Shown here: one piece after another, positions 5,732 to 52,240 of the stretch
Layout: each line of letters opens with the position of its first letter
Numbering within the stretch: the stretch's first letter is position 1
Origin: Pyrobaculum sp. WP30
GTDB taxonomy: Archaea > Thermoproteota > Thermoprotei > Thermoproteales > Thermoproteaceae
Assembly: GCA_001189275.1 (NCBI GenBank)
Contig: CP012158.1
Span: forward strand, 248,001 to 312,000
Length of the DNA stretch: 64,000 bases
Reading direction: 5' to 3'
Translations under genes and position numbers: made by a program
Notes under the pieces: generated by a model
Told to the model about the DNA's origin: nothing
The model's input: the letters and a program-made list of their open reading frames with translations, nothing else
The model's database searches: none

Positions 5732-5806
5732 AACCCGGCACATTTTTCTCCCGGCAGGATCAGCCCCGGAGTCGGCCCGGCGGGCCGCCCATGAGAGGGG
5801 CGCCGG

Positions 5807-6145
5807 CTAAAACCTCCTCTTATTTTTCTCGAGCTTCTGGAAGTAGGCCTTCTCCAAGTCAACGCCGAGGAGCCCGGCGATGGTCAGAAGATATATGAAT
5901 ACGTCTGTGACCTCCTCCACCAGTTGCTCCCGCACATCTTCAAGCCTCACGTCGCCTCTTCCGTACACCACGCCCCTCACCACCTTCTTCACCAAGTTAG
6001 CCGCCTCCCCCACCTCCCCCGCCAAGGCGTTGGTTAAATACTCCAGCCTGAGGGCGAGGTCACGACCGTCTCGTATCTCCCAAAACTGGGGAAACTTCTC
6101 CCGCGAAAACGCTATCTGCATCTCCACAAGCCTGTTGAGATCCAC
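5807..6145 (-). CDS. MazG-like nucleotide pyrophosphohydrolase
   Basis: A 112-residue all-alpha NTP pyrophosphohydrolase. The sequence contains EYLTNALAGEVGEAANLVKK followed by EEVTDVFIYLLTIAGLLGVD, the ExxE...ExxD metal-binding arrangement of MazG/dUTPase-type enzymes. The likely role is hydrolysis of non-canonical or surplus NTPs. It is short, a single domain. A 75 bp spacer containing the GC palindrome ggcccggcgggcc separates its end from the preceding convergent gene. Confidence 0.85.
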   Translation of the reverse strand: MDLNRLVEMQIAFSREKFPQFWEIRDGRDLALRLEYLTNALAGEVGEAANLVKKVVRGVVYGRGDVRLEDVREQLVEEVTDVFIYLLTIAGLLGVDLEKAYFQKLEKNKRRF

Positions 6146-42387: not shown

Positions 42388-42460
42388 AGGTGTAGATGCT
42401 GGGCTCGACGGCCGTGTCTGCGGCAGAATGAAGGGCCCGCCCGCGGCCGAGTCTACACCT
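42388..42460 (+). ncRNA. Candidate structured RNA
   Basis: The tract AGGTGTAGA (42388-42396) pairs perfectly with TCTACACCT (42452-42460). Inside it, CTCG(AC)GGCCG at 42404-42414 pairs with CGGCCGAG at 42444-42451, around a ~30-nt G/C-rich loop. The TATA-like cttttataaatg (42372-42383) lies just upstream, at the distance that would start a transcript near 42400. An ACA occurs near the 3' end (42455-42457), as in archaeal H/ACA guide RNAs. It could also be a terminator-like hairpin of the convergent gene. Strand is assumed from the promoter. Confidence 0.35.
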
Positions 42461-50854: not shown

Positions 50855-51997
50855 ATGGGGGCGGCCTGGGCCGCCGAGTGGCTGGTTGCCGACGGGCTTT
50901 TTAAAAGAGGAATCGGATGCTCAGTGCTCTGGTTTCTGCTGACCACGGGGGCTTGCAACTTGTCTTGTAGCTACTGCGGCGGCTCCTTCAGCCCAGCCCA
51001 CTCCCCCTGGAGGCCCGCCGTCGAGGCGGGAGACGTGGCTAGGTTCATCGCGGCGAGAGACCCCGCGCCGACTGTCTTCTTCTACGGCGGTGAGCCGCTT
51101 CTAAACCCTCAGTACATCGAGGCGGTGATGAAGGCGATGCCGCACGCCCGCTTCGGCATCCAGACCAACGGCACCCTAGCCAGGCGGCTACCGCCCGAGA
51201 CGTGGCGACGGTTCTCCACAGTCCTGCTGTCTATAGACGGACCCCCCGAGGTGACGGACAGCTACAGAGGCCCCGGCGTCTACAAAAAGGTGGCGGAAGC
51301 GTTGCGGTGGCTCAAGGAGGAGGTGAAATGCGGCTGTAAGATAATCGCCAGGATGGCGGTGTCGCGGCGCTCCAGCATATACAGAGATGTCACCCACCTC
51401 CTATCCCTCGGCTTCGACGCCGTCCACTGGCAACTCAACGTGATCTGGACCAAGGAGTGGGGGCCCAGCGACTTCCTCAGCTGGGCCGAGGCGGAGTACC
51501 TCCCCGGCGTCGTCAAGCTGAGAGACCTATTCCTGGCGGAGGCCGAGAGAGGGAGGGTGCTGGGCATTGTGCCCATACTCGGCATATACAGGGCGCTTCT
51601 CGTGAAGCCATACGAATGGGTGCCATGCGGCGCAGGCAAGTACAGCTTCGCCATAAACACCGACGGGAGGGTGCTCCACTGCCCCATAGCCGTCTCCGAG
51701 AAGTGGGCCACGGCGGGACACATAAAGATCGGCCTCAACGGCGGCACCCCCAGGCTGAAGGATAAGTGCCTCCGATGCGAGTACAGACACGTCTGCGGCG
51801 GCCGTTGCCTCTACACGCACTACGAAGACTACTGGGGCGAGGAGGGCTTCGACGCTGTGTGCTCAGTTACCAAGAAGACGATAAGGCTTCTAGAGGAGGC
51901 GGCGCCAAGACTAAAAAACCTCATAGACACCGGCAGGCTCGCCAGAGATGCGCTAAACTACGACCCTCTGCTGGACTCCACCGAGGTAATTCCATAA
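50855..51997 (+). CDS. Radical SAM protein with SPASM-type C-terminus
   Basis: A 380-residue radical SAM enzyme. Three cysteines CNLSCSYC (C-x3-C-x2-C) at about 34-41 bind the 4Fe-4S cluster with SAM, and the GGEP motif follows in FFYGGEPLLN. A C-terminal set of Cys (VPCGAGKYS; LHCPIAV; KCLRCEYRHVCGGRC; AVCSV) matches SPASM auxiliary-cluster binding, as in peptide-modifying enzymes such as AnSME and sactisynthases. GTG 50923 is a possible later start. A tiny ORF follows at 52057, making a peptide-modification system conceivable but unproven. Confidence 0.82.
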   Translation: MGAAWAAEWLVADGLFKRGIGCSVLWFLLTTGACNLSCSYCGGSFSPAHSPWRPAVEAGDVARFIAARDPAPTVFFYGGEPLLNPQYIEAVMKAMPHARFGIQTNGTLARRLPPETWRRFSTVLLSIDGPPEVTDSYRGPGVYKKVAEALRWLKEEVKCGCKIIARMAVSRRSSIYRDVTHLLSLGFDAVHWQLNVIWTKEWGPSDFLSWAEAEYLPGVVKLRDLFLAEAERGRVLGIVPILGIYRALLVKPYEWVPCGAGKYSFAINTDGRVLHCPIAVSEKWATAGHIKIGLNGGTPRLKDKCLRCEYRHVCGGRCLYTHYEDYWGEEGFDAVCSVTKKTIRLLEEAAPRLKNLIDTGRLARDALNYDPLLDSTEVIP

Positions 51998-52056
51998 CAT
52001 TCACATATAAGCCCACCGTCAAAGACACAGCTATAAAAAGAGAGGCTGAGATATAT

Positions 52057-52101
52057 ATGCCCTGTAAAAAGAAGAAAAGCGCAAAAGAGGAAAAGGCGTA
52101 A
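52057..52101 (+). CDS. Possible 14-residue Lys-rich peptide ORF
   Basis: ATG 52057 opens MPCKKKKSAKEEKA and ends at TAA 52101. The TATA-like gctataaaaagag (52030-52042) is 24 bp upstream, exactly the leaderless distance used by most genes here, with no other gene nearby to explain it. The peptide has one Cys and is otherwise charged. It lies 60 bp after a radical SAM/SPASM gene. Whether it is expressed or is a substrate is unknown; it may be chance. Confidence 0.35.
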   Translation: MPCKKKKSAKEEKA

Positions 52102-52240
52102 GCCCGCCGGAGTTCCTCGCGTCTTTTGTTGCGTAAATTTCCAGGTTTTTGTTAACTATATATTGATTTAGACAATTATAATTTACTGCAATTATCGATA
52201 ATAATGCTAAAGATTTATTTAGGCCTAGGAGATGGGCTCT
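52102..52240. promoter_or_regulatory. A/T-rich control region before the liv operon
   Basis: 139 bp, much richer in A/T than the rest of the window. Features: a repeated CAATTAT (52173-52179 and 52189-52195), a perfect palindrome ATTATCGATAAT (52191-52202), and a TATA box gatttattta (52212-52221) that is about 24 bp before the livK start at 52241. The palindrome lies upstream of the TATA box, where it could serve as an activator or BRE-overlapping site. Confidence 0.5.

Follow-up and report, generated by a model that had tools for sequence, protein, structure and literature searches.

Downstream of the gene for a radical SAM/SPASM enzyme in Pyrobaculum sp. WP30, on the same strand, is an open reading frame of only 14 codons with a TATA box in front of it. 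Does this frame belong with the enzyme, as one half of an enzyme-peptide modification unit, is it a gene in its own right, or is it no gene at all? The initial annotation of the locus proposed the first and allowed for the last. The comparisons described here, made from a 64,000 nt stretch of contig CP012158.1 (the window, to which all coordinates refer), argue for the second.

The frame runs from the ATG at 52057 to the TAA at 52101 (+ strand; 52057–52101 with the stop included) and specifies MPCKKKKSAKEEKA, as first reported. The TATA box noted before the ATG was also found, as TATAAAAA (52032–52039, + strand), and occupies positions -25 to -18, within the distance of about 20–27 nt before the start that is expected of leaderless genes, and so fits a leaderless transcript. 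On the 3' side, a T5 run at 52146–52150 (+ strand) is a candidate terminator, and a T4 run is present at 52124–52127. Chance alone could place a TATA-like box ahead of a mini-ORF, such boxes preceding 12 of the 259 ATG ORFs of 10–25 codons counted in the 64 kb window. The frame at 52057–52101 is probably more than chance because it is conserved in other genomes, 19 of which carry similar ORFs. This conservation settles the initial doubt about the peptide as far as the gene is concerned, but it does not rescue the modification unit.

The neighbouring enzyme gene (50924–51997, + strand) lies outside the unit considered here. Its identification as a radical SAM/SPASM gene was sound: the product scores 63 bits against Pfam Radical_SAM and 528.1 bits against TIGR04084 (rSAM_AF0577; cut-off 225), and is a full member of the latter family, for which no paper using the name TIGR04084 or AF0577 was found among the literature matches listed. 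The start originally given, ATG 50855, is probably too early, and the enzyme most likely begins at a leaderless GTG at 50924 (VLWFLLTTGACNL), which is favoured by comparison of orthologs. The corresponding codon is GTG or ATG in all 14 orthologs examined, an AT-rich box lies about 20–26 nt 5' of it in most of them, and in-frame stops close the frame upstream in some (G003, G009 and G014). In the window, the enzyme gene probably has TTTTTAAAAG (50898–50907, + strand) as its TATA box. A CxxxCxxC triad and seven further cysteines are invariant across the 14 aligned orthologs (columns 11, 15 and 18, and 235, 253, 282, 285, 291, 295 and 313), and we take the triad and the seven SPASM cysteines to be the motif of this enzyme class. 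The P. oguniense enzyme is 76% identical to that of the window, and orthologs are present in 16 of the 19 genomes of the archaeal family, the exceptions being G007, G008 and G010.

A search for conserved mini-ORFs beside these orthologs found the 14-codon type adjoining only 3 of the 16 (G000, G004 and G005), and the proposed modification unit did not survive this comparison. The ORF is located elsewhere in five relatives (G001, G002, G006, G012 and G016), and eight genomes, some of them incomplete, have the enzyme gene but yielded no ORF (G003, G009, G011, G013, G014, G015, G017 and G018). The G004 copy of the enzyme gene is broken: an insertion that carries a Cas12f1/TnpB-like ORF divides it, and there are stops in the 3' piece (L019, L038), yet the mini-ORF next to it is intact. 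Among more distant archaea that carry the ORF, TIGR04084 exceeded its cut-off in none of the eight genomes searched (G045, G046, G047, G238, G243, G282, G395 and G081; G044, G414, G415 and G479 were left out). Apart from the 14-codon ORF, nothing was shared among the 234 mini-ORFs that lie no more than 600 bp from one of the 14 orthologs compared, beyond what neighbouring genes or sister genomes account for. Those that scored best were shared by sister genomes (G017/G018, G003/G009) or apparently lay in, or antisense to, neighbouring genes, and the sole pair beginning MPCK was that of G000 and G005.

It might still be argued that the downstream peptide is a substrate of the SPASM enzyme, with its Cys or Lys residues as the sites of modification, at least within the Pyrobaculum clade. 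The adjacency in three genomes and the full set of conserved cysteines in the enzyme would suit this, and a lineage-specific link is conceivable since the enzyme gene is present, if broken in one case, in all eight genomes of the archaeal family that carry the ORF. Set against these points are the 13 orthologs with no adjoining ORF, the distant carriers with no enzyme over the cut-off, the survival of the ORF next to the broken gene of G004, and enzyme flanks that share no other short ORF once neighbouring genes and sister genomes are set aside, and we consider such a pair very improbable. Since the mini-ORF does not travel with the enzyme, the two probably adjoin only by chance, and the mini-ORF is in all likelihood independent of its neighbour.

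Other proteins are encoded beside the enzyme in some relatives. In the six genomes of genus g2, the gene 3' of the enzyme gene is for a small protein, apparently secreted or membrane-bound, with an Ala-Pro-Tyr stretch in common (judged by eye; L011–L015, L018), and this protein could be a better candidate for a partner of the enzyme than the mini-ORF. G002, G003 and G009 share a different downstream gene (L005, L007, L008), for a membrane protein that is presumably a LysE-type exporter.

If the ORF does not depend on the enzyme, its relatives have to be sought by their own sequence. Two were recognized by position behind the enzyme gene, ahead of any pattern search: MPCKKKKAEAKNEAK in G005 and MPCKKKKSENKGETK in G004. 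The pattern MPCKKKK has exactly one match in each of 6 of the 19 genomes of the archaeal family and its reversal has none, and the further members found in this way are MPCKKKKSGEKSTN (G001), MPCKKKKNNEKSSK (G006) and MPCKKKKNVANAKTS (G002). Wider pattern searches of 81, 398, 15 and 229 genomes (overlapping sets) added peptides of 13–23 residues beginning MPCKRK, MPCKSK or MPCKK(K/R), of which two are from genus g2, four from g29, three from g111, one each from g102, g148 and g31, and two from g171. Altogether, ORFs of 13–23 codons that start (M/V)-P-C-K-x-(K/R) and in most cases continue into a Lys/Glu-rich tail were found in 20 genomes of 8 genera and 5 families of Thermoproteota. They are best read as an undescribed family of 13–23 residue peptides, defined by the (M/V)PCKx(K/R) start and a hydrophilic, mostly Lys/Glu-rich tail, with a patchy distribution in that phylum.

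The reversed-pattern controls set the weight of each search. No control match was obtained with the 81 genomes; with the 398, 26 genomes matched, of which 16 hold convincing members, against 3 for the control; and with the 229, the 21 matches contributed 3 more members, against 7 for the control. A loose pattern applied to 15 genomes gave as many forward as control matches, and only that of G044 was kept; one family member, from this search, has a GTG start. Matches were dropped by eye where the tail was not Lys/Glu-rich, where the frame was very short or very long, or where it lay inside genes. Those removed are the G014 match of the 81-genome search (tail not Lys/Glu-rich), 10 of the 26 genomes of the 398-genome search (G256, G352, G101, G108, G248, G348, G315, G037, G345 and G404), 14 of the 15 loose-pattern matches and 14 of the 21 from the 229 genomes; G415, G479 and G081 were retained despite weaker tails or promoters. 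By eye, a peroxiredoxin-like protein of G556 and G558 also starts with MPCKSKLKEG, like some of the microproteins (L097, L098; position 1501, reverse strand).

No member was found in G003, G007–G010 or most other genomes, a count to be read with the reservation that diverged copies would escape the patterns. Allowing two mismatches in G003 and G007–G010 gave nothing convincing, and the MqnA-like flank of G003 and G009 holds no mini-ORF. Profile searches of Pfam and NCBIfam returned no match for five members of 20–23 residues, queries so short that these searches have little power. Neither MPCKKKK nor five other member starts were found as text in the literature, and among the literature matches listed for small proteins and for small RNAs of Pyrobaculum, no title or opening of an abstract describes such a peptide. 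The available part of PMC11364881 indicates that ORFs were predicted there from 30 bp upward, and family ORFs could be present, unlabelled, in that catalogue.

A set of short Lys-rich ORFs with similar beginnings might nevertheless arise by chance, and the sequence is simple, TATA-like boxes are common before the mini-ORFs of the window, and more than a third of the genomes matched in the 398-genome search had to be discarded. The signals around the 20 members, summed over the family, differ from this expectation. Their A+T content peaks at -27 to -20, reaching 0.81 in the best 8-base stretch, and a TATA-like box lies at -30 to -17 in 13 of the 20, compared with a background of 5% and with 6, 2 and 2 members for three zones elsewhere. 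In 16 of the 20, T5 follows the stop by no more than 60 nt (background, 7%). Eighteen of the 20 have a tail that is Lys/Glu-rich and non-hydrophobic. In a length-matched background of 1123 other mini-ORFs, from which those beginning MPCK are excluded, only 3 do, one of them being a longer reading of the G479 member (the figure was 28 of 1243 when the background still held family copies). Net charge is also steady, at +3 to +6 in 18 of 20, the exceptions being G479 (+10) and G081 (+8). With tails, promoter position and T-runs all set apart from background, and a single copy in each of six Pyrobaculum-group genomes where the control pattern has none, chance appears most unlikely as an explanation.

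The pattern of substitution points the same way. Over the first seven codons of G000, G004 and G005, the four columns that vary all fall at third positions (p = 0.006 under random variation of columns), and this trio is the unbiased case, G004 and G005 having been found by position. Third-position counts in the first codons of pairs found by pattern prove little, because the patterns themselves permit mostly synonymous change. Synonymous change is common in such pairs, the numbers of synonymous and non-synonymous codons being 6/0 (G238/G243), 6/2 (G414/G415), 5/4 (G001/G006) and 6/6 (G045/G047), counts that include the first codons as well as the tails, which are free of the pattern constraint. 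These data also bear on whether the unit acts as a small RNA in which the ORF is incidental. A promoter and a T-run are present and the expected transcript would indeed be short, but the substitutions are coding-like, the flanks are apparently unconserved on both sides except for the AT-rich box, and Rfam gives no match at the mini-ORF at gathering scores, including none to C/D or H/ACA RNAs. A small RNA is, in our estimate, very improbable. The only two Rfam matches in the window lie elsewhere and are the Pyrobaculum H/ACA RNAs PyrR209 and PyrR210 (5753–5818 and 42400–42457).

The position of the mini-ORF looks stable within groups of genomes and different between them (Pfam searches were run on one genome per group, and the others were compared by eye). 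It lies between a methyltransferase gene and a menaquinone-type (VitK2_biosynth) gene in G001 and G006. In g111 its neighbours are a DNA polymerase B gene on one side and a ThermoDBP-related gene on the other, and in g29 (G045, G047) it is flanked by a gene with a tRNA-binding domain and one with alanyl-tRNA-synthetase-type domains; in G016 it adjoins a HIT gene. In the three g111 loci (L067, L068 and L069; Pfam on L069 only), the microprotein gene is directly 3' of the ThermoDBP-related gene and in the same direction.

By comparison of genomes, then, the frame at 52057–52101 is conserved, its promoter and T-run are consistently placed, its substitutions are of the coding type and it is independent of the enzyme, and it is very probably a real gene. 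We favour, with somewhat less assurance, a fuller reading: a self-standing leaderless microprotein gene with its own promoter and a probable terminator, which is not a partner of the enzyme and would specify a charged peptide acting on nucleic acid or ribonucleoprotein.

From these features we infer that the gene is transcribed and translated. Proline in the second position favours removal of the initiator methionine, and since Pro follows Met here, the methionine would be removed to leave a disordered peptide of the form Pro-Cys-Lys-x-Lys. This peptide would be soluble and would carry a net charge that hardly varies (about +4 to +5), and it may bind nucleic acid or ribonucleoprotein electrostatically, as suggested by the short invariant motif, the hydrophilic tail and the steady positive charge; we put forward such binding tentatively, as a prediction from composition. 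The single invariant cysteine might serve in metal binding, in redox chemistry or in a disulfide, for example in a dimer with doubled charge. Taken to its full extent, the proposal would be that independently transcribed protein genes of 13–23 codons, among the smallest in archaea and each equipped with promoter, leaderless start and terminator, specify Pro-Cys-Lys-x-(Lys/Arg) peptides of nearly fixed net charge that serve as polycations on nucleic acid or ribonucleoprotein, switched by redox state or metal, and this extended form we regard as doubtful.

The main rival reading places the peptide in a large assembly (chromatin, the ribosome or RNA polymerase) as a small accessory subunit that was missed for being below annotation size. 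Its size, charge and invariant N-terminal motif would suit a docking peptide, and crenarchaeal ribosomes are described, in the available parts of PMC11698992 and PMC10516650, as having several recently found extra proteins. A patchy distribution would be odd for a core subunit, however, and one 23-residue member matched no PDB chain of 20 or more residues (the collection has no shorter chains, and so short a query gives little power). Of those extra proteins, aS33 and aS34 are given as absent from Thermoproteales in the accessible part of PMC11698992, and an accessory subunit seems unlikely, if less so than the other alternatives.

ORFs this short are commonly ignored in genome annotation, and if the extended proposal holds, a functional class of genes lies below the usual thresholds. 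A single-copy gene of 14 codons that has its own promoter and is found in several genera and in varied neighbourhoods would demonstrate that an archaeal gene can be complete at this size. In cultured Pyrobaculum species, the mini-ORF gives RNA-end mapping and peptide mass spectrometry something definite to look for.

Several known systems resemble the locus in part. The enzyme belongs fully to the TIGR04084 (rSAM_AF0577) family, with which no peptide partner was seen to track. A SPASM enzyme beside a short, Cys-containing ORF recalls the radical SAM/SPASM RiPP maturases and their precursor peptides, but the locus differs from these in how seldom the two adjoin and in their lack of co-occurrence in the eight distant carriers searched. 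The crenarchaeal ribosomal extras (aS33, aS34 and aL45–aL47) are likewise overlooked small proteins of Thermoproteota. According to the available portion of PMC11698992, one of aS33 and aS34 has about 80 residues and two zinc motifs, and an identity of the microprotein with either was set aside on description and on their reported absence from Thermoproteales.

A likeness at the N-terminus is also found in viruses. The pattern MPCKKKK also matches 13 viral contigs, several of which have very basic ORFs of 11–15 residues (MPCKKKKRKPRY, MPCKKKKSKNKRKKK). One begins at position 648 of L104 (+ strand), directly before a terminase gene, another lies among the head genes of L106 (3258–3278, - strand), and a third is in L111. 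Short basic starts may recur independently, phages having MPCKKKK too, and for this reason the distant archaeal members may not all share an ancestor. The first seven residues of the phage ORFs (e.g., those of L104 and L106) are identical to those of the archaeal ORF and the peptides are very basic, but their tails are rich in Lys and Arg with no Glu, and in some a GGAGG-like site precedes the ATG. Since both tails and start signals differ, the resemblance between the phage and archaeal ORFs is probably the result of convergence.
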